Virus record (IMG/VR): IMGVR_UViG_3300036761_000294
Location: 1 to 23,189 of that record
DNA from: a virus
Direction: 5' to 3' (one strand)
Length of the DNA: 23,189 bases
Shown piece after piece: positions 1 to 21,902 of the stretch; position 1 is the stretch's first letter; each line of letters opens with the position of its first letter. A model generated the notes under the pieces. The model saw only the letters and a list, made by a program, of their open reading frames with translations. It was not told the origin of the DNA and searched no databases. The position numbers and the translations under genes were made by a program.

Positions 1-239
1 GACAGTTGCAACAGGCCGAGCGTATCGTAAAGCGTTGAACCTGAGCGCACCCAGGCGTTGCGGATCGAATCCCACACGCCATCCGAGCGGCGATAGTTCT
101 CAATCCCTCCGCCGAACGTCACTTGTCGGCGGCGTAGGTTCGTGCTGTCGTACCACGACCGGAACCCGTCCGGCTTCCACTGGGCCGACACCTCGACCGC
201 CAACAGACATATAAACAATATGTAAAGTGTGCGTTTCAT
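1..239 (-). CDS. secreted protein of unknown function, 3'-truncated by window edge
   Basis: This open frame starts at ATG 239..237 and runs off the left edge, so only the first 79 residues are seen. The N-terminus is a textbook Sec signal peptide: Lys-Arg at residues 2-3, a hydrophobic core at about 4-15, and a V-S-A cleavage motif at 17-19 followed by Gln-Trp. The mature part is rich in Trp, Asp, Arg and Ser. An AAGGA ribosome binding site lies about 9 nt upstream, and the gene follows the small paralogous protein ending at 252. It is the last visible gene of the late cluster. I do not recognise the family. It could be a long exported or surface protein whose body lies outside the window. 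Export of a late phage gene product is unusual and matches the other exported proteins at 704-1114 and 7240-7767. Confidence 0.72.
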   Translation of the reverse strand, partial: MKRTLYILFICLLAVEVSAQWKPDGFRSWYDSTNLRRRQVTFGGGIENYRRSDGVWDSIRNAWVRSGSTLYDTLGLLQL

Positions 240-251
240 GTTGCTATGTCC

Positions 252-665
252 TTACGCCAGCGTCGCCCAGCCGCCAGTGAAGTCGATAGTATAGGTCTCA
301 CCGCTCGCCAGCGTCACGTCCGAACCGTGATCGTACCAGCAGATAAGCGGATCGGCCGGAGATGTCGGGGTGTCGTTATAAATCACGACATATCGGAACG
401 TCGCCACCGCACCCGAGGCCGTCAGCACAAGATCGGTCGCCGCGCCCGTCGCCGTTCCCGTCGTATGTGTCCAACCGACACCCGCAAGAACGCGAGTGGA
501 TAGGTTGGTGTACGCAATCTGCGTCAGGTTGGCGAGAACAGTATTAGTCGCCACCGGCGCATTCGCGGCCGCGCACAGGGCAACGGTGAGCGCCCCGGTG
601 TTGAGGTTATGCACTCCCTGACCGATGTCTTGCACGAACACTTGGAACTTGTTGAAGGTGGCCAT
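252..665 (-). CDS. small putative virion protein, paralog of 1825-2250
   Basis: The product is 137 residues with no signal peptide or membrane segment. Its composition is rich in Ala, Thr and Val and low in charge, as in small beta-sandwich virion proteins. It is clearly homologous along its length to the product of 1825-2250. Shared blocks include GVHN near residue 17, APVATN and LTQIAYTNLS in the first half, and DLVLTA, VATFRY or VASFRY, and TSPADPLIC in the second half. An AAGGAG ribosome binding site lies just upstream of the ATG. I remember similar proteins as unnamed phage proteins near tail genes, so a tail-tip or decoration role is likely but unproven. The two copies flank a membrane/lipoprotein cassette. 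Divergence is greatest near residues 60-75 and at the C-terminus. Confidence 0.82.
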   Translation of the reverse strand: MATFNKFQVFVQDIGQGVHNLNTGALTVALCAAANAPVATNTVLANLTQIAYTNLSTRVLAGVGWTHTTGTATGAATDLVLTASGAVATFRYVVIYNDTPTSPADPLICWYDHGSDVTLASGETYTIDFTGGWATLA

Positions 666-703: not shown

Positions 704-1114
704 TCACGGACAGGGCTCCGCTCGGAGATCGGTAATCGGAAGGGGGAACGTGATGTCTTTAGTACGAAAGGAGGGGACATTGGATACAGGACTCCAATTC
801 CCGGCGTCGTCGCCGACTTTCATCGCGAAGTAAATCAAGGTATCGCTTGGCAAATCGGTAATGATCAGAGTGTCGACGAAGCCCCCGCACTTTGGCTTCT
901 TGACGACGGTCAACCTTGTAGCGGTGGCAAAGGATTCTGTGGTTATAGTGTCATAACTATACCGCAGATCATACGCCGTTGCGCACCCGGACAATCCGTT
1001 GTCGCCGGTGGTCTTGAATATGAGCCGGGCACATTGGCCCGGTGTTTGCGACACCGGCGCCGAACAACTGGCGGCGATCAGGAACATCGCGCTGAGGATA
1101 AGTAAGCGTTTCAT
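704..1114 (-). CDS. phage-encoded lipoprotein with fibronectin type III-like domain
   Basis: I chose ATG 1114..1112 over a longer upstream frame because it forms an ATGA overlap with the stop of the preceding gene and places a lipoprotein signal at the N-terminus: Lys-Arg at 2-3, hydrophobic residues 4-13, then A-A-S-C with Cys17 as the predicted lipidated residue. The lipobox has Ala rather than Leu at -3. Residues about 30-125 read as one FnIII domain: YDLRYS in an early strand, a TDLPSDT turn, the YFAMKVGDDAGNWSP strand-loop typical of FnIII, and an SNV ending. The 136-residue protein would sit on a membrane facing the periplasm. Candidate roles are superinfection exclusion, as with other phage lipoproteins, or an outer-membrane spanin partner for the membrane protein at 1449-1739. 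The sequence alone does not decide. Confidence 0.8.
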   Translation of the reverse strand: MKRLLILSAMFLIAASCSAPVSQTPGQCARLIFKTTGDNGLSGCATAYDLRYSYDTITTESFATATRLTVVKKPKCGGFVDTLIITDLPSDTLIYFAMKVGDDAGNWSPVSNVPSFRTKDITFPLPITDLRAEPCP

Positions 1115-1452
1115 GACATTGCCTTTCTTCTGGATTGACTTCTTTTGACCCCGAACTGCACACCATTGGCGGCTCTCCACTGTCCAAATGTTTGGATATA
1201 GACCAAATGCCTGCGGATCAGGGTGTGTTTCTGCTTTTCGCGGTCGTGCAATGTTGCCTTCGGATTCATCAATGCCATCACGCTTATATTTAAGTCGTTG
1301 GCCGCGATCAAGAATTGCTTGGTAATACGCTGACCGCTGAATTGGTCGCGCGCCTGTTCCAACTCAAATTCTCGCTGGCGGAATTCTTCACGGCTTATCC
1401 CCGGCTCATTCATCTTCTTAGACAAATGCCACAATTCGCGCGGTGTGGTCAT
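1111..1452 (-). CDS. basic hypothetical protein, 113 aa
   Basis: The family is not recognised. The protein is soluble, with no signal peptide, and looks mostly alpha-helical. The first 45 residues are rich in Glu, Arg and Gln and could form a helical hairpin. The last 20 residues are strongly basic, with RSQSRRK near the end. It overlaps both neighbours by ATGA: its start overlaps the stop of the membrane protein gene (1449-1739), and its stop overlaps the start of the lipoprotein gene. This gives a three-gene translationally coupled cassette. Coupling implies shared expression and perhaps a shared job, but there is no motif from which to name a function. Confidence 0.7.
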   Translation of the reverse strand: MTTPRELWHLSKKMNEPGISREEFRQREFELEQARDQFSGQRITKQFLIAANDLNISVMALMNPKATLHDREKQKHTLIRRHLVYIQTFGQWRAANGVQFGVKRSQSRRKAMS

Positions 1453-1739
1453 CGCCGATTCTCCCTCACAAGCGCTTTGATTTCCGCGAGTTCACGTTGG
1501 ATCGATTCAAATTGCGTTTCGAGTTTCGTCACCCTGTTTTCTGCGGCCTGTTCCTTATCTGTAGCGATCTTTATCCCCTCGTCGTGCCGACTCGCCGTGC
1601 TGGACATGATTGTCGCCCCGGTAATCAACAATGCCGCGATGACTCCGATGCAGGTTATAGCGATGTACTTCCATGACGGCCCGCCGTTGCTTTTGCTGGT
1701 GGTGTCCGGATCATTGTTGCTGTCTCGATGTGCTGTCAT
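1449..1739 (-). CDS. single-pass membrane protein with C-terminal coiled coil (spanin- or holin-accessory-like)
   Basis: The product is 96 residues. A polar N-terminus of about 23 residues is followed by one hydrophobic segment (about 24-46) and then a charged heptad-rich helix (about 55-96, with the core VTKLETQFESIQRELAEIKALV). With no cleavable signal, the likely topology is N-in, C-out, placing the coiled coil in the periplasm. This is the layout of inner-membrane spanins such as Rz and of some holin-associated proteins. It lies two genes before an FnIII lipoprotein, which would match an i-spanin/o-spanin pair, although the lipoprotein is larger than usual o-spanins. The ATG overlaps the stop of a possible 25-codon ORF. 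Cell-lysis or membrane-anchored roles are inference. The membrane segment and coiled coil are seen directly. Confidence 0.75.
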   Translation of the reverse strand: MTAHRDSNNDPDTTSKSNGGPSWKYIAITCIGVIAALLITGATIMSSTASRHDEGIKIATDKEQAAENRVTKLETQFESIQRELAEIKALVRENRR

Positions 1740-1813
1740 TGCCGCCCTTTCTCAAACGAGTTGTATGGCCCGCCATTCGTCTTTCTCGTGATGTCGTTGT
1801 CGCGTGTTGTCAT
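1736..1813 (-). CDS. possible 25-codon leader ORF
   Basis: A short frame from ATG 1813..1811 ends in a TGA that overlaps the ATG of the membrane-protein gene (ATGA). A GGGG-containing stretch just upstream could act as a ribosome binding site. The peptide begins MTTRDND and contains an NGGP motif near residue 13; the next gene has a similar MTAHRDS start and NGGP at 18-21. It may be a coupling leader, a decayed duplicate of the downstream N-terminus, or chance. No function can be assigned. Confidence 0.35.
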   Translation of the reverse strand: MTTRDNDITRKTNGGPYNSFEKGRQ

Positions 1814-1824
1814 TTCGGCCCCTT

Positions 1825-2250
1825 CTATGCAAGTGTCACGATATAAGTACTGAAATCAATCGTATAGGTGTCGCCGTTATTCAATGTGACCGCAGTCGCC
1901 CCCGTAGAATAAAAGCAGATCAGAGGGTCCGCCGGTGAAGTCGGGTCGTCGTTATAGAGGACGATATATCGGAACGACGCGACGGTCCCGGTTGCGGTCA
2001 GCACAAGGTCAGTGGCTGTCATTCTCGCCGTTCCCCCCGATTGTTCGGCTGTGATTCCCGTAACCACCCTCGATGATAGGTTGGTGTAGGCGATCTGCGT
2101 TAAGTCCGCGAGTACCGAGTTGGTCGCAACCGGGGCGTTACCGGTGGCGCATAGGGCAACCGTTACTGTGCAGGTAGCGTCCGAAGTGAAGTTGTGGACA
2201 CCCTTGCACAAATCCTCGGTGAACTGATTGAACTTTGTCGCTGTCGCCAT
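1825..2250 (-). CDS. small putative virion protein, paralog of 252-665
   Basis: The product is 141 residues, without signal peptide or membrane segment, and homologous to the product of 252-665 over nearly the full length. Conserved blocks are KGVHN or QGVHN, APVATNSVLADLTQIAYTNL, DLVLTATGTVASFRY and DPTSPADPLIC. It directly follows the large hub-like tail gene, with only 11 nt between that gene's stop and this start and a GGAG ribosome binding site in the gap. The position after the baseplate/hub gene supports a tail-tip or fibre-associated structural protein, but this is inference from order. The duplicate differs by short insertions around residues 22-26 and 66-72, consistent with a tandem duplication later separated by the inserted cassette. 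Confidence 0.83.
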   Translation of the reverse strand: MATATKFNQFTEDLCKGVHNFTSDATCTVTVALCATGNAPVATNSVLADLTQIAYTNLSSRVVTGITAEQSGGTARMTATDLVLTATGTVASFRYIVLYNDDPTSPADPLICFYSTGATAVTLNNGDTYTIDFSTYIVTLA

Positions 2251-2261
2251 ATCCCCAACTC

Positions 2262-4616
2262 CTACAGGTTCTTGGTAAGCCTCACATCGGGGAACGCCAG
2301 GTTAATTGAGGCGGACTCGATAATTGTGTTGTTATTCCCCGCTGGGGCCACGTTTAGATTTACCGCCGTGATGAACGTCGACGTCGGGGTGTGCCGGATA
2401 TTGGAAATCAGGAAACCGGTATTGGCCCAGCTCGCCCCGTAACAAAGCACAAGAGGGTCGATTGTCGTTGGGTCAAATAGAACCCAGTCTCCGACCTCCA
2501 AGTCGCAGTTACGAACACCGGGGCAGGTGAACGAAATCGTGGTGTGTTGCGCCGCCCATAGACGCCGAATCAGATCGGCCACCTCGTACACCGAATTGAC
2601 GGAATCTCCCGTTATGTTGGGCCAGTTGAATTCCTGCGTGAAAGTGCCGAAATCGGTCATCGATGTCGCGTTGGAATATTGGCTGAAGGATTGGCTCCCG
2701 CCATATTCCTCCATGAAATGATGCTCGATCTTCAGGTCGTTGACAAGTTTGGACTCTTTCGATATCACAAGAGAACTCATATCGATATCCGAGGCGTTCA
2801 ACGTCCTCGCGACCGTCGGAGAATCGATATCAAGATCGATGAGGCGCGGATGGGACACCCCCGATACCGTGAAGGCGAACGTCGACTGCTCGGCGAGTTG
2901 ACGAATAATTGCATACGAATAATCTTGATTGTCGCTATTGAGGTGTAGTCGCGCTTTTACGTTTGGGTTGGCGGCGGCATCGAATGAGGCCGTGTCGATA
3001 TCGGCTGAAACAAAACCCAATTCGTCACGCAGAATGGACTCGACGATGAAGGCCGGGTCTTCAATCAAATTGTTTTCATTATAGGAATTTGATCGCCCGC
3101 CTTCGTCAATCCATGCCCCGAACTTGCGGCCTTTGACGGCGGCATATATCGCGTATGTCGGTTTAGGGGCAAGCGGGCGTTGAATGGCGTTGGGATGCCG
3201 CGAGCCGGGGCGGGGTTGTGGGATCGCCCGCACGGTAAGGTACTGGAACCCCGCGCTCGGGATATAGCGAATCACGAGGCGGATATATTTCACATAGAAG
3301 ACCTCGCGCCCAGCCGTGGTCGGCGTCTTGGTCGTGTCCATGTAGACGACGGCCACAACCGGGTAGTTGGTCCCGTAGGACGTATTCAATCCGGCGCGGG
3401 GGTGCCAGTAGACATAATCGTCCCAATGCGTCGTGGTCTTGGCGAACGCCAAGCTCCCCGGCGTTCCTCCTGTGATTGTCGCTGAGGGGGGCGTACCGCT
3501 CAAACCGAGCAGTTTGATATATGCCGTGCCGGTTATATCGGGAAGTGTAACGTCCCATTCCAGGTTGAGATTGTAGGCCGTTCCGGGGGCTACCCCGCCG
3601 ATCAATCCGATTTCGTTCGTGTAGGCGTTGTCCGTCCGATCATAGTCGGGCCAACTGAAATAAGCATGAGCGTGAACGCCCGATCCCGTGATTGCGTCCG
3701 TGACGGTCGCGTAAGATGTTGTGTCCAAATCCCCGGCTTTCTGCGCATTGACCGTCACGCATTGACCGTCATACCCCGCCCCGTCAGTCTGCGCTCCCCG
3801 GTTCTGTCCGTCGACAAATAGATATGCGTCGGCGTGCACCTGGCCGTATGATCCGCCGGTGTTCGCAATGTTAGTCGTGCATCGCCCGCTATCGTCGGCG
3901 GTTAACGTCGGGCTATATATCTTCGAGGGGTGAGGCAGTTGCGGTTGCGAGTAGAAGGCGGACGTGACGGTATGGCAAACGTGATCGGCAATCAGATAAT
4001 AATTCCCGTCGGCGTTGTACAGCGGCTCGCATAACACCAGCCCAAGATCGACCGAGCTGTCGTATGTTTTGTTGTATTCTCCCCACACGAGCGGCGATTT
4101 TCGCAAACTGTAAGGTGACGCCGCCCCGCCGGTGTCAATAATAAGATTCTGAGGGAGCAAAGCGTCCCTCCGACGGGCGCCATCGATTGCATACAACTGC
4201 ACTTCGTCGAGTGTAACCGTTGCCGGTTCTGATATTTCACCAGAAAAGATCAATAGGCCGTCCGATAATGCCGTTGGGCTGACCCCCGCGAGCACGTAGA
4301 TTGACAACGTGGCCCCGCGAATCACGTCCGTTTCATCAGCGAAAGAGACCCACGCATGGGAGGCGTTCTGTTTGTATGGGGTATTAGCCAGATTCAGGCG
4401 AACGTCCTGCACCGACCACTCCTTCGTCACATAATCCACCGCACTTTCAATGCTCGGCTCGGCGGTGAGGAGAGCATAGACATGCCCGTCAGTGAGTTGC
4501 ATGTCGGTATCGCTGAAGAGCCAAGTCGAACTCCCCTTGACGATCTTGACCACCCAACGAGAAGACGCGCCGATCTGCCGAAAATACCGCGCCCCGTATG
4601 CCGGAAACGTCATCAT
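2262..4616 (-). CDS. large tail protein, probable baseplate hub / tail-associated protein
   Basis: At 784 residues this is the longest product in the window. The start is the first of two consecutive ATGs and overlaps the stop of the distal-tail gene (ATGA). The order tape measure, distal tail protein, then a large protein is the standard siphovirus tail-tip order, where this slot holds the hub or tail-associated protein. The N-terminal part (about 1-160) looks like a hub beta domain. The middle (about 190-460) is a Gly/Thr/Tyr-rich beta region, possibly an inserted carbohydrate-binding or jelly-roll domain. The C-terminal part (about 500-784) contains ADLIRRLW and a TISFTCPG...LEVGDWVLF segment like the strand pattern of phage hub domains. 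No peptidase or lysozyme motif was found. The role in adsorption and DNA ejection is inferred from position. Confidence 0.78.
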   Translation of the reverse strand: MMTFPAYGARYFRQIGASSRWVVKIVKGSSTWLFSDTDMQLTDGHVYALLTAEPSIESAVDYVTKEWSVQDVRLNLANTPYKQNASHAWVSFADETDVIRGATLSIYVLAGVSPTALSDGLLIFSGEISEPATVTLDEVQLYAIDGARRRDALLPQNLIIDTGGAASPYSLRKSPLVWGEYNKTYDSSVDLGLVLCEPLYNADGNYYLIADHVCHTVTSAFYSQPQLPHPSKIYSPTLTADDSGRCTTNIANTGGSYGQVHADAYLFVDGQNRGAQTDGAGYDGQCVTVNAQKAGDLDTTSYATVTDAITGSGVHAHAYFSWPDYDRTDNAYTNEIGLIGGVAPGTAYNLNLEWDVTLPDITGTAYIKLLGLSGTPPSATITGGTPGSLAFAKTTTHWDDYVYWHPRAGLNTSYGTNYPVVAVVYMDTTKTPTTAGREVFYVKYIRLVIRYIPSAGFQYLTVRAIPQPRPGSRHPNAIQRPLAPKPTYAIYAAVKGRKFGAWIDEGGRSNSYNENNLIEDPAFIVESILRDELGFVSADIDTASFDAAANPNVKARLHLNSDNQDYSYAIIRQLAEQSTFAFTVSGVSHPRLIDLDIDSPTVARTLNASDIDMSSLVISKESKLVNDLKIEHHFMEEYGGSQSFSQYSNATSMTDFGTFTQEFNWPNITGDSVNSVYEVADLIRRLWAAQHTTISFTCPGVRNCDLEVGDWVLFDPTTIDPLVLCYGASWANTGFLISNIRHTPTSTFITAVNLNVAPAGNNNTIIESASINLAFPDVRLTKNL

Positions 4617-5440
4617 ATAGTCGCCCCCGGCGCAATGGCTGGCTCAGTCGCAAATGAAACCCCGGCGGAATAGACCTGATAGACGACTTCCCGTCGCTCG
4701 ATCTGCGGCGAGGCGAAGCGGACGAGTTTGGCGTTAGCGGGTGTCGCATCCTCGACGAGAATCAGTGGCCGCCAGTCACCCCGGCAGTCGTTCCACGCGA
4801 GGACGAGTGGGAGCGTTTCCCATGCGCCGCCGGTCACAAACAAATATTGTCGGTTGAGCACTTCACGTTTGAGTGTGCGGATCAGTTGGGTATATACCCG
4901 CCCGGATGCACTCTCGGTCTTGCGGGTGAGATAGGTTTGCTGATCGGACTGCGGGGTCTGGTTGCCCTGCGTGATCGCGTAGTTCGTCCACAGGAACGGT
5001 ATGCTGATTTCAACGATTTGATCGGGGGCTATAATCTCGAACTTCCAGTACCGATAACTCTGCTGTGTCAATCCCAACGTGCCGAACATTATGTTCTGCG
5101 TGAAACTCTGTGTATATATGTCAGGCAGGGTGAGCGTGTCCCATAGGGTATAGGTCGAATCGTTCGAGGAGTAATAGACCTTTATCTGCTGAGTGCCTGG
5201 GCCGGGCTGTAAGGCGACGTCGACATTGTGTATCCAGACCGCCCAACCCTTGACGGTTTTTACGGTGGTCAAATCGATCTTGAATGAGACCGTGCCGACA
5301 GCGGTGGGTTTCCAGTAGGTGTCGGGATTCCAGTCGACAAGGTTTTCTTTGGGGAACCCGGTCGCCTCGCTCGTGGCCGACAAGGCAAAGGCGTCCTTCA
5401 TGGTGTTGCCGACGCAGTATAGGGTAGCGGATGAAGCCAT
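4613..5440 (-). CDS. distal tail protein-like, with discoidin (F5/8 type C)-like N-terminal domain
   Basis: The product is 275 residues, immediately downstream of the tape measure (ATG one base past its stop) and overlapping the hub gene by ATGA. This is the position of distal tail protein (Dit). Residues about 15-150 read like a discoidin/galactose-binding fold: an Ala/Thr-rich opening, ENLVDWNPDTYWKP (the family's DGD..T.W turn), FKIDLTTVKTVKGWAVW, an IKVYYSSNDSTYTLW strand pair, and a final YWKFEI strand. Residues 180-275 form a second beta-rich region. Dit proteins often carry carbohydrate-binding modules, so host-glycan binding is plausible. The discoidin call rests on pattern recognition, not a profile search. 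Confidence 0.72.
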   Translation of the reverse strand: MASSATLYCVGNTMKDAFALSATSEATGFPKENLVDWNPDTYWKPTAVGTVSFKIDLTTVKTVKGWAVWIHNVDVALQPGPGTQQIKVYYSSNDSTYTLWDTLTLPDIYTQSFTQNIMFGTLGLTQQSYRYWKFEIIAPDQIVEISIPFLWTNYAITQGNQTPQSDQQTYLTRKTESASGRVYTQLIRTLKREVLNRQYLFVTGGAWETLPLVLAWNDCRGDWRPLILVEDATPANAKLVRFASPQIERREVVYQVYSAGVSFATEPAIAPGATI

Positions 5441-5441
5441 A

Positions 5442-7220
5442 TCAGTTGAACGCGATTACGGAGTTGCCCGTCGTAAAGCCACTGTTATACTTAAAGCCAC
5501 CGAATCCATAGTTGGCGGCGCGCTGAATTGTATCGACGATGTTCTTCTTGATGAACTCGTGGGTCATATTGCCGGTGACGTTGATAACGATATTCCCGCC
5601 GCCATGCCCGGCGGCTGGCGCGGTCGCATTCTGGATATAACGCTGTGACTGGCCACCGAAAGCCGCCGCCCCCGCCATCTCGGCGGCTCCCGCAGTCATC
5701 GCCTCGACGGCACCCCGCGTGAAGTACGTCCCATAATCACGACCCATCTGCATCGCCATACGGTCGTTTGCGGGGACATCGAATAGCTTGAGCATTATCA
5801 ACAGTTTAGTAACGAGTTTTTGCGCCACCTGTCGAAGCACTTCGTCGATAAAGTAGAACACGAAATCCTGAGCCATATTCCCAAAGACACTTGACGTTTC
5901 AACCCGCAACTTCCACAGCTCCTCGCTGATATTGTCTATCCCCTTGCTGGCCGATTTACCGATGGCCGAGGCGAATCCCTTGCTGAGCGTCGACAACTCG
6001 TTAAGACCCTTCTTCCCCGCGTTCTTGAATTTGTCGAAACACATCATCGCACGGTCGAAGTCGGTGCCCATCGATTTGATAGTCTCGTCGAAGTTCTTCG
6101 CGGCTTCATTGAACGGAATAAAGAACTCCATCGCACGGTCGAAGTCGGTGCCCATCGATTTAAGCATTGCGTCGAGTTCTGCGGTATTTTGCAAGAATGG
6201 TTTCAGTGCCTTTTGATTCGCCTCGCCGAAATTCTTCAGGACATCCTCAGCCGCAGAATTCATTAACACCGCCACATTTACCGCCTGCCCGATTCCAAGA
6301 ACCGCGTCGGTTCCGACCTTTAAGAATGCCGCGCCAACGTCGGCCGCGTTTTGCTTGATTTGCTGAAGCGCCGCCGGCAAACCCGCCGCGCCCGCGCCCG
6401 GCCCTTCTGCAAACGCGGCCATAGCGGTAATAACTGTGCTGATAGTATCGAGTGTCTTCGTGGCAACAGTCGATATTGCGCCGAAGAAGTCCCGCACAAA
6501 CTGCGTCGCATTGCCAAACATCATGGGGACGTTTTGTGCAAAGACTGAAATCTCAGCAAACGCGGCGGCGAGTAACGCCGTAACCCTGACGCCCTTGCCG
6601 AACGCCTCAGCTACATTGTCAATGCTTTCTTTCATCCGCTTCAGTTGGCCGTCGTATGTCATCATGTCGGCTTGAGCGGAGCCGCCGAAGTTTGCATTCA
6701 GTTGTTTCACTACTTGGGCAAACTTCTCCGCTTTCGGTAAACTATCATCGATTTTAAGTCCGTACTGTTGAACTCCCCGCGTTATTCCATTGAATGCTTT
6801 GCCAAGCATTGACGCCGTGGATTCAAGACTCTCCCCACTATACTTGGCGGCGTCCATCGCCGTCGTCATGACCGTCATTGCTGTCGCTACCGGTACGCCG
6901 AGATTTATCATCCGCGACAGACCACGCTTGTATAACTCGTCGGAAGTCCCCGTCAGGTTGATTGTCGCAAGGGACGCCTTGTCGATCTTATCCTTCCAGT
7001 CACCCAACGTGATCCCGTGGCGTTTCATAGCGGCATCGAGAGTGATTGTCGCCTGCTCATCTTCACGCGTGGCGGTGACGATGCCCCCGATGACATTCTT
7101 AACCGTACTCCATGACAAATACGCAAGCCCGATTGCGCCGATAGATTTGGCAATACCGGAGAGCCCGGACGATATCTCGTCCTTGAGCGCTATTCGTAGG
7201 TTTACATCTTCCGAGGCCAT
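5442..7220 (-). CDS. tape measure protein
   Basis: The product is 592 residues and mainly alpha-helical. Ala/Gly-rich hydrophobic stretches at about 20-45 and 215-310 may form membrane-inserting segments. It sits between the tail-chaperone genes and the distal-tail gene, the canonical place for the protein that sets tail length and is ejected with DNA. Residues 60-230 have the helical pattern of phage tape measures, including GTSDELYKRGLSRMINLGVP and a GKAFNGITRGVQQYGLKI stretch. An in-frame 28-residue repeat with the core SMGTDFDRAM occurs around residues 354-364 and 382-392. The C-terminus is Gly-rich. At 592 residues it predicts a short siphovirus tail under the usual rule of about 0.15 nm per residue (inference). 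Confidence 0.88.
   Translation of the reverse strand: MASEDVNLRIALKDEISSGLSGIAKSIGAIGLAYLSWSTVKNVIGGIVTATREDEQATITLDAAMKRHGITLGDWKDKIDKASLATINLTGTSDELYKRGLSRMINLGVPVATAMTVMTTAMDAAKYSGESLESTASMLGKAFNGITRGVQQYGLKIDDSLPKAEKFAQVVKQLNANFGGSAQADMMTYDGQLKRMKESIDNVAEAFGKGVRVTALLAAAFAEISVFAQNVPMMFGNATQFVRDFFGAISTVATKTLDTISTVITAMAAFAEGPGAGAAGLPAALQQIKQNAADVGAAFLKVGTDAVLGIGQAVNVAVLMNSAAEDVLKNFGEANQKALKPFLQNTAELDAMLKSMGTDFDRAMEFFIPFNEAAKNFDETIKSMGTDFDRAMMCFDKFKNAGKKGLNELSTLSKGFASAIGKSASKGIDNISEELWKLRVETSSVFGNMAQDFVFYFIDEVLRQVAQKLVTKLLIMLKLFDVPANDRMAMQMGRDYGTYFTRGAVEAMTAGAAEMAGAAAFGGQSQRYIQNATAPAAGHGGGNIVINVTGNMTHEFIKKNIVDTIQRAANYGFGGFKYNSGFTTGNSVIAFN
6045..6077 (-). repeat. 33-bp direct repeat in tape measure gene, copy 2
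   Basis: The 33 bases are identical to 6129-6161, with start-to-start spacing of 84 bp, so the two encode the same residues (SMGTDFDRAM core) in the same frame one 28-residue period apart. This is the second copy in transcription order. Confidence 0.95.
6129..6161 (-). repeat. 33-bp direct repeat in tape measure gene, copy 1
   Basis: The 33 bases are identical to 6045-6077. Unequal recombination between copies would change the tape measure by exactly 28 residues while keeping the frame. Confidence 0.95.
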
Positions 7221-7239
7221 ATCGCCGCCCTTTGCCCTG

Positions 7240-7767
7240 CTACTTTATCTCCGTGATATGCAACTGCAAGCGGCGCGCATAGGTGTTCCCCTTGATCGCC
7301 GCAACCCAGGCGCCGCCACTGTCGGCCACGATGAACCGAGCGCGAATGATAGGCCCCGCCATAAGGGCCGTCGAATCACGATTGAACGTCTTTGCGCCGG
7401 TCGTGGTAATCACGAATCCCGAATCGCTGAGCGGCAAAAACGCAATGCGCGGCGAATCGATCAGCGTGACGGTTGTCCACGTGGCATTGTCCATCGATGT
7501 CTGGATTTGCACCTTCAAAGAATCATTGGCAAAGTTCGAATCAGTTCCCGACACCGGCGCGAGACGATGATACGTGAACCACACCCGATCCGTCGCGTCG
7601 TCAAGGATGAACGGATTGGAATACACGGTGTCTTTGTAATACCGGATATTCGCGGCTGCCGAGTCGGCCTGTTTGATTTGGTGCGACCAGTTGACCTCCA
7701 GCGCGACCGCCCCCGCAGTTGAGGCCATTGAAATCAGGGCCGCTATCGAAAGACAAAGTTTCTTCAT
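7240..7767 (-). CDS. secreted beta-rich protein of unknown function inside the tail operon
   Basis: The product is 175 residues with a clear Sec signal peptide: Lys at 2-3, hydrophobic residues 4-15, and an A-G-A cleavage motif at 18-20. A strong GGAGG ribosome binding site lies about 5 nt upstream of the ATG, which fixes the start. The mature domain alternates short beta strands with Asp/Ser/Thr-rich turns and has no Cys; it resembles a jelly-roll or adhesion-type domain but no named family. It sits between the tail-chaperone genes and the tape measure, in a slot where siphoviruses do not usually place exported proteins. A virion protein would not normally be exported, so it may act in the host envelope, for example to modify the surface or block a receptor. 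The signal peptide is seen; the role is inference. Confidence 0.78.
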   Translation of the reverse strand: MKKLCLSIAALISMASTAGAVALEVNWSHQIKQADSAAANIRYYKDTVYSNPFILDDATDRVWFTYHRLAPVSGTDSNFANDSLKVQIQTSMDNATWTTVTLIDSPRIAFLPLSDSGFVITTTGAKTFNRDSTALMAGPIIRARFIVADSGGAWVAAIKGNTYARRLQLHITEIK

Positions 7768-7779
7768 GTATCCCTCCGG

Positions 7780-8106
7780 TTATTTGTCGTTGGCTTCTCG
7801 TAATTTCCGTATCTCTGCGAGTTTGCTATCGATAATGGCACAGCAATCGACGTACACGGCCGGGAGTGCGTAATACTGTTCGGGTGTTGCAATGCGTTTG
7901 AGACCATCACACGCCGAATAGACTCTGAGCGCCTCATAACTGAGCGGCGTGAAATATCCGCTCGGACATATCCCGTACAGCATGACCGCCCGGTATGCCG
8001 GGAGCCAGTCCATGCCTTTGACGCGCTTGACCGTGTCCGTGAAGGCGTCAACGGTGTCGAGCGAGACATCGAGAGTCGGCAAGTCGGGCGCTTCGGCATG
8101 GATCAC
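7780..8106 (-). CDS. tail assembly chaperone-like protein, second ORF (T-like)
   Basis: The product is 108 residues, beginning with GTG at 8106..8104, which overlaps the stop of the preceding gene (GTGA). The pair of small, partly overlapping ORFs between tail tube and tape measure is the G/GT arrangement of siphovirus tail assembly chaperones. The frame is -1 relative to the upstream ORF, the direction used for the lambda G-GT fusion. No canonical slippery heptamer is visible; the last codons before the stop are AAA GGG. The middle part contains Tyr- and Cys-bearing helices (LSYEALRVYSACDGLKRI), and the end is a charged helix. It may be made separately by translational coupling rather than by frameshift. 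The family call rests mainly on position and size. Confidence 0.6.
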   Translation of the reverse strand: MIHAEAPDLPTLDVSLDTVDAFTDTVKRVKGMDWLPAYRAVMLYGICPSGYFTPLSYEALRVYSACDGLKRIATPEQYYALPAVYVDCCAIIDSKLAEIRKLREANDK

Positions 8107-10204: not shown

Positions 10205-10659
10205 CAGACCGCCCCTTTCGCCCGGATGTAGCGCAGGTGCAATGAAACGATGCAGTCGGCCATGTTGCGATCAGGGTAGAGATTATATGAATCGACAGCG
10301 GCGACCCGGATATGGACGAAACTGCCGTCACTGAGTGAGCGGTCATCGGCGAACTTCTGAATCTCGGCCACAACGGCGTTGAGATTCGTCAACGCGTCCT
10401 CTTTGGTGTCCAACTTGACAAGGATTTGCAGATGGATATGCGACAGATACCGCACATTCACAGCGTCTTGGACTTCGGGGATAGATTCACCCGCGTCTAT
10501 GATCGTGATCGCGGGGGTCTGCGTCTGCGGCGTGGTTAGGTAATTCGTTTTCCACCGGGTGATATTCGGGCCTTTGACGGCGACAGAAACGCCGGGCGTC
10601 TCAAAGTGATCGCGCAGATCGCTTTCCAATGCAGTCAGGACGGATTCTTTACTGCTCAC
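10204..10659 (-). CDS. tail terminator / neck-like protein (first of two)
   Basis: The product is 151 residues, with GTG start 10659..10657 overlapping the stop of the gp10-like gene (GTGA). The N-terminal helix (SVLTALESDLRDHF) and a beta strand carrying PAITIIDAGE are followed by a strand with YLSHIHLQILVKLDTKEDA, a helix (TNLNAVVAEIQKF) and closing strands. This order of helix, ligand-like strand and the HIHLQIL strand is common in minor tail or tail-completion proteins (DUF-type gpU-like). It lies between the HK97 gp10-like protein and the second similar protein, so it belongs to the head-tail joining set. No enzymatic motif is present. Confidence 0.6.
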   Translation of the reverse strand: MSSKESVLTALESDLRDHFETPGVSVAVKGPNITRWKTNYLTTPQTQTPAITIIDAGESIPEVQDAVNVRYLSHIHLQILVKLDTKEDALTNLNAVVAEIQKFADDRSLSDGSFVHIRVAAVDSYNLYPDRNMADCIVSLHLRYIRAKGAV

Positions 10660-11117
10660 TTGCGCCCCCCGATAGCCGCCAGCATGATATTGATGACCTT
10701 ATCCTTGCTCTGCCGCCACGCTGGTTTGACATACGCCCTCGGCGGGATCGTGATCGCCGTCGTGCTCGCGCGCAGGTGAATCCCTGTTGCATGGAGGTAT
10801 CGACGCATGGCCTCCGTTATGGTGATCCGACCACCAAACTCCTGAATGGCCGCATACACCGTATTCGGGCCAACCTTGACGACCATGCCGTTGGATTCCG
10901 CTTGAGCGGTGACGCTTCGACGTAGGTTACTCGTGACCCAGCCGGGATAGGGATTCCCCGGTGATCGCTTGCCCGACAGGTTCTTCTTGATCTGCGCTTC
11001 AACGGCAAAGCCGGATTTGAGCAGACCCGCTTTCGCTCGCGTCAAAGTCGCGCCGAGAAAGGTCCCGAACCGCGCCACGCGGGCTTCGTCGTCCCATTTG
11101 ACGATCAGTTCAGCCAA
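10656..11117 (-). CDS. HK97 gp10-like head-tail joining (neck) protein
   Basis: The product is 153 residues, apparently starting with TTG at 11117..11115, since no ATG or GTG exists in frame nearby. The TTG overlaps the end of the connector gene, so initiation is probably coupled. An AAGG motif lies about 9 nt upstream. Features of the gp10/virion-morphogenesis family are a basic helix in the first 50 residues, a VGPNTVYAAIQEFGG strand-turn (the family's YA..QEFGG), and the ending IPPRAYVKPAWRQS (R.YL.PA). These proteins close the head or join it to the tail. The order connector, gp10-like, tail terminators, tail tube agrees with HK97-type phages. Confidence 0.8.
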   Translation of the reverse strand: MAELIVKWDDEARVARFGTFLGATLTRAKAGLLKSGFAVEAQIKKNLSGKRSPGNPYPGWVTSNLRRSVTAQAESNGMVVKVGPNTVYAAIQEFGGRITITEAMRRYLHATGIHLRASTTAITIPPRAYVKPAWRQSKDKVINIMLAAIGGRK

Positions 11118-20185: not shown

Positions 20186-20400
20186 AGTTTCATCCGCTCC
20201 CTATCCGCCGTTTGCCGATATTCATCAACAATCGGGTGATCCGGCGATACTCCCGCGTTGAGTAGATACTGGGTTTGCGCGTCACAAAATTGCAGGGTCG
20301 TCTTCCCTTGGCCCCCGTTGATTTTATACCCGTCAAGCATGATCCTGGCGGCGGCAGAACAGCGAGACGTTGAGACGGGCACTCCGAAGATGTTAGTCAT
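20182..20400 (-). CDS. small hypothetical protein, 72 aa
   Basis: ATG 20400..20398 overlaps the stop of the N4-cytosine-type methyltransferase (ATGA), and its own stop overlaps the next gene. The sequence starts MTNIFGVPVS, which recalls the MVNVFGNAVS start of the 33-codon ORF at 22516-22617 that precedes the other methyltransferase. The middle has KINGGQGKTTLQF, which superficially resembles a P-loop but is too short to be one. The C-terminus is charged. No function is recognised; it is real by coupling and spacing. Confidence 0.65.
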   Translation of the reverse strand: MTNIFGVPVSTSRCSAAARIMLDGYKINGGQGKTTLQFCDAQTQYLLNAGVSPDHPIVDEYRQTADRERMKL

Positions 20401-21902
20401 ATCGCCAAGACCTCCTGCTTGAGCCGTCGCTCGGCCATTGCAATATATTCGGGGTTGAGTTCTATCCCGACAAATTGTCGCCCCGCGTTCTTGGCTACAA
20501 CGGCCGTCGTGCCGCTTCCCATGAAGGGGTCAAGAATTACGTCGCCGACTTTTGTCCCCGCCATAAGACATATCTTCACAAGGTCGGGAGGAAAAGTTGC
20601 AAAGTGGGCCTCGGAAAACGGTTTCGTTGCGATAGTCCAGACCGAGCGGCGGTTTCGAGATGTTATTTCACCGTTCCTCGCCTTTTTGAACCACTCGTTT
20701 TTGTATCTTGCCGTTATGGGGGAATTGTCGAAAGTCTCATTCTTCTGGTTGGTCCCGTCATCGCCATAATTATCGGAACCGGGGGCAAGTGGCTCCGCAA
20801 CCGCCTTCGCGTCGTAATAGTACCGTTCAGATTTTGTCATCAAGAAAATATATTCGTGCGATTTCGTGCATCGGTCGGTCACTGACTCCGGCATAGGGTT
20901 GGGCTTTGACCAAATAATATCAGACCGGAGCCACCAACCATCGGCCTGCAATGCCAGGGCCACGCGCCACGGGATGCCGATCAGGTCTTTGGGTTTGAGG
21001 CCTTGCTTGGGCTTGAAATACTTTTGGATTGATTCCGGAACACTGGTGATGTCAATCCTGAGTGAGGACAAAAACCGAACAAACCTAATGCCGAATTGCA
21101 GTTCCAACAAAGAATTCGGTATTTGTCCTTTGGCAATCCTTCTGCTATCGCCCTTCGCCAAACTCCATGTGGCCCTCCCGCTTTCTTGTATTCGCGCCTC
21201 CCTTGTCCCTTGATGTGATCTAAGCAAAGGAATATCATTTCTGTCTCGCCGCAACAAACACACTTGCCCCCGAGTGCTTGGATCATTTCCACCCGTCTTT
21301 GACGCCTTCGATTCTTTATCCGTAGGTTGAACTCCGCTGGGTTCTGGTGATAGTATTTCCTTTGCAACTCGAGCATCCTGGCTTTGTTCTCCCTCTTGTA
21401 TTTGACCTGATAGCACTGACGACAAAGGCCCTTCGCTTTCTTCTGCCCAACAGGATTTCCACAACTCCGGCACGTGCTCTTGTATTTCCAACGCGACTTC
21501 ATAAATCTCCTTCACCGTTAAATCTTCCTTGAGTATATATGAATTATTGGAAGATGTAAAGGATGTTGGAGGCCTTTTATTTGTGCCTGCCCGCTTGGCC
21601 TTCCCCGCCATATCGTGAGACATCGCCCCCCATGACCCGGAATAACTGTCACCCAGATTTAGAAAAAGTGTGCCGTCGGCTCGCAGGATTCGCCGAACCT
21701 CGCGGAAGACCTCGACCATTTTGGCAACATATTCCCCCGGCGTTTTTTCAAGACCCATCTCGCCATTTTCAACCCCGATGTCATACGATCTCAAACCCCA
21801 GTAGGGTGGGCTGGTTATCACGCACTGGACTGATTCTTCCGGCCAGTCGCGCAGAACGGTTAGCGCGTCACCGAGGATGATCTGGTTCGATGGCAGGGTC
21901 AT
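20397..21902 (-). CDS. site-specific DNA methyltransferase (N4-cytosine type) with an in-frame insertion
   Basis: The product is 501 residues. N-terminal motif IV is TSPPYWG (30-36), the SPPY form used by N4-cytosine and some adenine enzymes, and the C-terminal AdoMet motif I is DPFMGSGTT (about 458-466), followed by FVGIELNPEYIAMAERRL; this order defines a beta-class amino-methyltransferase. Conserved blocks after the insertion include LKPKDLIGIPWRVALALQ, IIWSKPNPMPESVTDR and HEYIFLMTKSERYYYDA. Residues about 122-305 have no family resemblance; this segment overlaps the HNH gene at 20981-21502 in another frame and has no stop. Removing it leaves about 315 residues, the usual size. Phage methyltransferases protect the genome from host restriction. 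ATGA overlaps link it to both neighbours. Whether the insert permits activity is unknown. Confidence 0.82.
   Translation of the reverse strand: MTLPSNQIILGDALTVLRDWPEESVQCVITSPPYWGLRSYDIGVENGEMGLEKTPGEYVAKMVEVFREVRRILRADGTLFLNLGDSYSGSWGAMSHDMAGKAKRAGTNKRPPTSFTSSNNSYILKEDLTVKEIYEVALEIQEHVPELWKSCWAEESEGPLSSVLSGQIQEGEQSQDARVAKEILSPEPSGVQPTDKESKASKTGGNDPSTRGQVCLLRRDRNDIPLLRSHQGTREARIQESGRATWSLAKGDSRRIAKGQIPNSLLELQFGIRFVRFLSSLRIDITSVPESIQKYFKPKQGLKPKDLIGIPWRVALALQADGWWLRSDIIWSKPNPMPESVTDRCTKSHEYIFLMTKSERYYYDAKAVAEPLAPGSDNYGDDGTNQKNETFDNSPITARYKNEWFKKARNGEITSRNRRSVWTIATKPFSEAHFATFPPDLVKICLMAGTKVGDVILDPFMGSGTTAVVAKNAGRQFVGIELNPEYIAMAERRLKQEVLAI
20406..20418 (-). repeat. 13-bp repeat at 3' end of second methyltransferase gene
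   Basis: These 13 bases (caagacctcctgc on the plus strand) are identical to 21908-21920 at the matching place in the first methyltransferase gene. They encode the shared QEVL stretch near both C-termini. Confidence 0.7.
20981..21502 (-). CDS. HNH endonuclease nested inside the methyltransferase gene
   Basis: The product is 173 residues, read in the +1 frame relative to the methyltransferase. ATG 21502..21500 has an AAGGAG ribosome binding site 5 nt upstream, so it can be translated on its own. A CxxC zinc-binding pair lies at the N-terminus (Cys11/14 and Cys27/30), then a basic helical region, and the HNH core: CVCCGE (81-86), LDHIKG with Asp95-His96, and LCWNCNSALG with Cys122/125. GFCPH (133-137) closes the domain, as in intron- or gene-inserted HNH homing endonucleases. 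The last 30 residues, after GFCPH, read through methyltransferase coding sequence and stop inside its conserved KPKDLIG block. This is a mobile gene; it would spread by cutting methyltransferase genes that lack the insertion (family knowledge). Confidence 0.88.
   Translation of the reverse strand: MKSRWKYKSTCRSCGNPVGQKKAKGLCRQCYQVKYKRENKARMLELQRKYYHQNPAEFNLRIKNRRRQRRVEMIQALGGKCVCCGETEMIFLCLDHIKGQGRREYKKAGGPHGVWRRAIAEGLPKDKYRILCWNCNSALGLFGFCPHSGLTSPVFRNQSKSISSPSKASNPKT
21838..21887 (-). repeat. 50-bp perfect direct repeat, copy at 5' end of second methyltransferase gene
   Basis: The 50 bases are identical to 22455-22504. They encode the common NQIILGDALTVLRDWP stretch that starts both methyltransferases. 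Recombination between the copies would delete the DPPY methyltransferase gene and leave the SPPY gene with a hybrid 5' end. Confidence 0.95.

Follow-up and report, generated by a model that had tools for sequence, protein, structure and literature searches.

Phage lipoproteins that block receptors and are encoded beside tail genes are already a known kind. In T5, the llp gene lies adjacent to and downstream of pb5, the receptor-binding gene, and Llp binds FhuA from the periplasm (PMC9586334), while Rtp45 acts likewise on LptDE (PMC12685063). Lipoproteins also form the outer-membrane half of spanin pairs. A published survey of these gives a range of 62-300 residues for the combined periplasmic length of a pair, finds beta structure to be commonest in separated o-spanins, and records the Shivani pair, whose genes are about 700 bp apart with one gene between them, as well as o-spanins with four Cys and i-spanins that are Cys-free (PMC6139136).

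The window analyzed here is the whole of IMG/VR record IMGVR_UViG_3300036761_000294, a 23,189-base fragment of the genome of an uncultured phage. It contains lipo136, a predicted lipoprotein with a fibronectin III (FnIII) domain, encoded in a chain with the coiled-coil membrane protein coil96. This locus exhibits similarities to the systems above, but there are also clear differences. Like T5 Llp, T1/phi80 Cor, and Rtp45, lipo136 is a predicted phage lipoprotein whose gene lies beside tail genes and which should reside on the periplasmic side of the outer membrane; however, its mature part comprises 120 residues with an FnIII domain rather than a short peptide, it has no sequence link to these proteins, and Llp and Rtp45 (the latter about 6 kDa) are much smaller than the 13-kDa mature lipo136. 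Separated spanins (T4 PseT.3/PseT.2 and the Shivani pair) are alike in having a transmembrane (TM) coiled coil, a lipoprotein with beta structure and Cys, separate genes, and lengths within the same range, whereas the window has a folded bacterial-type FnIII domain, no profile match, and no lysis genes in view, and the FnIII protein of a syntenic phage has no lipobox. XhlA-type coiled-coil membrane proteins, finally, also combine a short TM segment with a coiled coil beside late or lysis genes, but the TM segment of coil96 is N-terminal, and no holin or endolysin neighbor is seen in the window.

Organization of the cassette and its neighbors

The minus strand holds the recognizable phage genes of the window. 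Portal, protease/major head protein, neck and adaptor proteins, and tape measure were identified by profile matches, and TerL matches terminases in tblastn. After the gene for a 784-aa tail protein (2262-4616), the order is a phrog_644 gene, the cassette, a second phrog_644 gene, and the start of a further exported protein (Table 1). The cassette consists of four tiny genes, mini25, coil96, basic113, and lipo136 (25, 96, 113, and 136 aa), chained by ATGA overlaps. All of them have a ribosome-binding site and phage-like codon bias; coil96, basic113, and lipo136 are each preceded by a Shine-Dalgarno-like sequence, and their GC3 of 0.61-0.66 is like that of the adjoining phage genes. These last three had been proposed in an initial annotation of the sequence as a coupled cassette, and they are indeed present and chained on the minus strand. 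That annotation lacked both mini25 and the two phrog_644 paralogues, which are 64% identical to each other and flank the cassette on both sides.

The mini25 product repeats the N-terminus of coil96, resembling the first 20 residues of that protein (MTTRDNDITRKTNGGP / MTAHRDSNNDPDTTSKSNGGP; z 6.1, reached by 0 of 500 shuffles). Translationally coupled to coil96, it looks like the remnant of a tandem duplication.

The coil96 protein has one N-terminal TM segment (Kyte-Doolittle value of 2.40 over 19 residues at residue 26), and in its 50-residue C-terminal part seven of the eight heptad a/d positions in the best 28 residues are hydrophobic, a result equaled by one of 5000 shuffles. The earlier description of a single-pass coiled-coil protein is therefore borne out in its TM segment and coil, while the N-in/C-out orientation, which the charges do not settle, is only plausible. 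Its best match to a spanin profile is the Rz-like spanin phrog_739 (E 0.0046). The Rz-like matches (0.005-0.02) were dropped as evidence for a spanin, with unrelated coiled coils matching alongside them. Together with mini25 and basic113, coil96 is, by analogy, most likely a membrane component of a lysis region, that is, an inner-membrane coiled-coil protein. The protein encoded between coil96 and lipo136, basic113, proved to be basic and free of TM segments, as had been claimed, and its AlphaFold2 model consists of four soluble helices (pLDDT 82). All matches of this fold to viral structures had E values of at least 0.29, and the PDB gave common helical matches only.

Table 1. Features of the cassette and of its flanks in the window
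Feature	Position	Strand	Basis or remark
Exported protein, start only, cut by the contig end (MKRTLYILFICLLAVEVSA-QWKP...)	3..239	-	Following exported gene
phrog_644 paralogue, downstream of lipo136	252..665	-	E 8.5e-12; function of family unknown
lipo136, predicted lipoprotein: one FnIII domain plus the beginning of a second (DITFPLPITDL)	704..1114	-	
lipo136 FnIII domain, about residues 26-119	758..1039	-	Profile, model, structure matches
lipo136 signal peptide, residues 1-16, predicted lipobox AAS-C17	1067..1114	-	PS51257-type pattern
basic113, soluble basic four-helix protein, pI 10.9, no family	1111..1452	-	AlphaFold2, profile searches
coil96, single-pass membrane protein, 96 aa, C-terminal coiled coil	1449..1739	-	Weak profile matches only
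coil96 coiled-coil stretch, about residues 62-94	1458..1556	-	Heptad test
coil96 predicted TM segment, about residues 26-46	1602..1664	-	Hydropathy
mini25, 25-aa leader ORF heading the chain	1736..1813	-	SD GAAGGGG; ATGA overlap with coil96
phrog_644 paralogue, upstream of the cassette	1825..2250	-	E 2.8e-10

Two further regions of the minus strand deserve mention. A signal-peptide protein (MKKLCLSIAALISMASTAGA-VALEVNW...) is encoded at 7240-7767, with the tail assembly genes on one side and that for the tape measure on the other. At 20397-21902, the frame of a 501-aa DNA methyltransferase stays open across a nested 173-aa minus-strand ORF in another frame (20981-21502), which by eye has the look of an HNH-type zinc-finger nuclease; within the methyltransferase, the best-matching Pfam stretch begins at residue 313, past the stretch of the nested ORF.

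The FnIII lipoprotein and its relatives

The N-terminus of lipo136 has K2 and R3, followed by a hydrophobic stretch and ...FLIAAS-C17. This fits the PROSITE PS51257-type lipobox pattern, with no Asp at +2, and the lipoprotein of the initial annotation is upheld as a prediction, although the Ala at -3 falls outside the strict [LVI][ASTVI][GAS]C consensus (PMC6139136). The fibronectin III-like domain is likewise real: a profile built with five relatives finds the FnIII domain of chitinase A1 (1k85) at 1.3e-8, the AlphaFold2 model shows a beta sandwich, its overall pLDDT of 72 rising to as much as 91 in the core, and FnIII domains occupy the top rows of a Foldseek search of the PDB (E 0.03, probability 1.00). 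Beyond an FnIII-type domain below threshold, lipo136 matched no PHROG or Pfam family. It contains four Cys, and the soluble part of coil96 contains none.

Peptide-pattern searches of IMG/VR with lipo136, coil96, basic113, and TerL gave none, and such a search with the 784-aa tail protein gave no new locus, its two-row alignment yielding L094 only. When 50,697 phage records were searched by tblastn, neither coil96 and basic113 nor the tail and tube proteins had a match, and the one hit of lipo136 covered a short part of a glycosyl hydrolase from a Nitrincola phage (6e-3). Searching IMG/VR with a degenerate pattern built on the YDLRYS...YFA core that marks this class of FnIII domain retrieved 13 loci, among them L094 (11 kb), a distant phage fragment and the sole syntenic relative found, in which eight tail genes of the window are matched in order at 24-35% identity.

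In L094, the homologue of the 784-aa tail protein gene is followed by genes for a 75-aa coiled-coil protein with an N-terminal TM segment, a 94-aa hydrophobic protein, a 144-aa exported protein with a single FnIII domain, and a large exported protein, the last joined to the FnIII gene by an ATGA overlap. The FnIII protein is 34% identical to lipo136 (z 20), and its orthology is assigned by position together with this identity. It starts with MKKAFLIMAVLLFAAPLMADDYS, an ordinary signal peptide with no lipobox and no Cys near the cleavage site. Therefore, the feature common to the window and L094 is export together with FnIII, and not lipidation. Both proteins stop a few residues into what would be another domain (PITDL in lipo136 and TVTDL in L094), as if cut out of a repeat array. 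The likeness between coil96 and the L094 TM-coil protein is weak (z 4.4, reached by two of 500 shuffles) and is of the degree expected of short coiled-coil proteins. The protein starting at the contig end of the window occupies the same relative position as the exported protein after FnIII in L094, but its match to that protein needs the signal peptides, the mature part scoring only z 1.1. The signal-peptide protein encoded at 7240-7767 has no L094 counterpart at its position. In addition, the L094 signal-peptide protein at 10318-11034 is homologous (z 23) to a protein of podovirus MW202647 (L101, 13902-15038) that shows no visible signal peptide and whose gene immediately precedes those for a coiled-coil/TM protein, an M15-type endolysin, and a holin.

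The closest domains are bacterial. FnIII domains of Elusimicrobia are 39-44% identical to that of lipo136, with scores of 177-200 versus 120 for the L094 protein. These exported domains of the YDLRYS type (e.g., in RIFOXYD2_FULL_34_15) and lipo136 have motifs in common, but lipo136 is a 136-aa phage lipoprotein with just one such domain, and the bacterial matches are not seen as stand-alone phage genes. Judged by sequence, the FnIII domain of lipo136 is of the bacterial exported type. Because lipo136 is nearer to these bacterial domains than to the L094 protein, the FnIII proteins of the two phages may have been captured independently. No relative of the tail-tube protein was found in 341 genomes of the Elusimicrobia phylum, where the host may still lie.

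Loci with phrog_644 relatives have no other tail gene in common with the window and are therefore analogies only. Two of them, L025 and L073, carry a lipoprotein gene immediately upstream of the phrog_644 gene; these lipoproteins are apparently unrelated to lipo136, no relation being detectable by what is a weak test. L100 encodes, at 2585-8038, three signal-peptide proteins in succession (348, 494, and 972 aa), after which comes a coiled-coil gene; the 972-aa protein contains FnIII domains. The three sit among podovirus-like genes and represent exported fibre-type proteins in another phage lineage.

Possible functions of the cassette

The initial annotation favored a spanin pair. As a separated two-component spanin, coil96 would be the i-spanin and lipo136 the o-spanin, with basic113 merely lying between; once the endolysin has cut the wall, the two would pair and fuse the inner and outer membranes. 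The parts, sizes, and Cys of this proposal fit. The topology of coil96 is that of a TM-coil protein, lipo136 has the predicted lipobox at Cys17 of an outer-membrane lipoprotein, and at least one periplasmic Cys is looked for in a pair, lipo136 having all four. The predicted periplasmic lengths of 50 and 120 residues add up to 170, within the surveyed 62-300, and an argument that the pair is too short for the periplasm was dropped, known pairs going down to 62 residues (PMC6139136). A separated pair, beta content, and a Cys split of 4/0 all have known precedent (PMC6139136), and L073, the strongest example in favor of a spanin, has a comparable layout in a lysis setting (TM-coil, M15-type endolysin by a weak match, DUF1353, 98-aa lipoprotein, phrog_644). 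However, the FnIII protein of L094, with its ordinary signal peptide and no lipobox, cannot be an o-spanin, so that the lipid anchor expected to be kept in homologous pairs is absent there. Profile matches are poor as well: coil96 reaches 0.0046 at best and lipo136 has none, against 1e-14 and 4.5e-6 for the Rz/Rz1 pair of L023, used as a positive control. Moreover, the endolysin and holin that the annotation had suggested looking for in the adjoining sequence were not found among the genes scanned in the 23-kb window, which is a genome fragment. The membrane-fusing pair is hence weakly supported, and we consider it unlikely.

Spanin profiles can miss true spanins. In L005 (2103-2415), genes for a 67-aa protein with an N-terminal TM segment and a 58-aa LIGC lipoprotein overlap by 68 bp after an M15-type endolysin, and this looks like an ordinary overlapped spanin pair in a phage of another kind, yet the PHROG spanin profiles either overlook it or score it no better than E 0.2. 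Behind the pair comes a separate gene for an exported beta-rich protein, whose candidate identity as FnIII was not confirmed.

A role in lysis could also be an accessory one, with coil96 and basic113 as a holin-type pair, as in XhlA plus holin, and lipo136 as a periplasmic accessory such as a wall- or membrane-binding tether rather than a fusogen. The 94-aa hydrophobic protein that follows the TM-coil in L094 is possibly holin-like, and coiled-coil/TM proteins adjoin M15-type endolysins in L005, L073, and MW202647. However, basic113 is soluble and does not span the membrane, and neither the window nor L094, both of them fragments, shows an endolysin; this is the least probable of the readings considered. 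An adhesin or conversion module, in which lipo136 and the products of 3-239 and 7240-7767 would be displayed as a set on or near the host surface and would alter host adhesion or shield the host from competitors, seems just as unlikely as the spanin pair. One late operon with three exported proteins is consistent with it, as are the two exported proteins in a row in L094, of which the second is homologous to the signal-less podovirus protein encoded shortly before endolysin and holin, and the three signal-peptide proteins in a row in L100. On the other hand, none of these proteins has a known function, the 3-239 product matches the large L094 protein only via its signal peptide, and late expression leaves little time for a benefit to the host.

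The likeliest of the readings weighed, which we put forward tentatively and at somewhat less than an even chance, is that lipo136 is a receptor-shielding lipoprotein of the superinfection-exclusion type, the fallback of the initial annotation. The cassette, with its translational coupling, would then be a late envelope module where the tail genes end. Lipo136, predicted to leave the cytoplasm by Sec and to reach the outer membrane with a lipid on Cys17, would most likely bind a host surface protein or glycan through its FnIII domain and shield the receptor late in infection, thereby keeping progeny from sticking to infected cells or debris. It would act in the manner of the T5, T1, and Rtp superinfection-exclusion lipoproteins, with a bacterial-type FnIII domain in place of the short peptide, and lipo136 would not be the outer-membrane half of a spanin pair. 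The precedent of T5 Llp, a lipoprotein encoded at such a tail-gene site, argues for this role, as does the fact that the distant syntenic L094 also encodes an exported FnIII protein at this position; conserved export and position are accommodated at least as well as by a spanin. However, lipo136 matched no Llp/Cor-type family among the PHROG and Pfam profiles, and its gene adjoins late tail genes among which no receptor-binding protein was identified in the window. Furthermore, the coupling of lipo136 to coil96 and basic113 suggests a joint action that shielding leaves unexplained.

Implications for environmental phages

Receptor shielding could be extended to the phage family of the window and L094 as a whole, although we regard this broader proposal as doubtful, more so than the spanin pair. 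Such phages would carry, at the tail boundary of the late operon, an exported envelope module that is shown on the dying host and blocks re-adsorption. The module would consist of the FnIII protein, lipid-anchored in one phage, and a large adhesin- or fibre-type protein with a signal peptide, and would thus represent superinfection exclusion built of bacterial FnIII and tail-fibre-type parts.

If lipo136 is an o-spanin after all, a folded bacterial-type FnIII domain would be able to serve membrane fusion. If, as we consider likelier, lipo136 belongs to the exported late envelope proteins, it would point to a recurrent and little-noticed habit of environmental phages, namely, placing genes for FnIII and fibre-type proteins with signal peptides among those of the tail.
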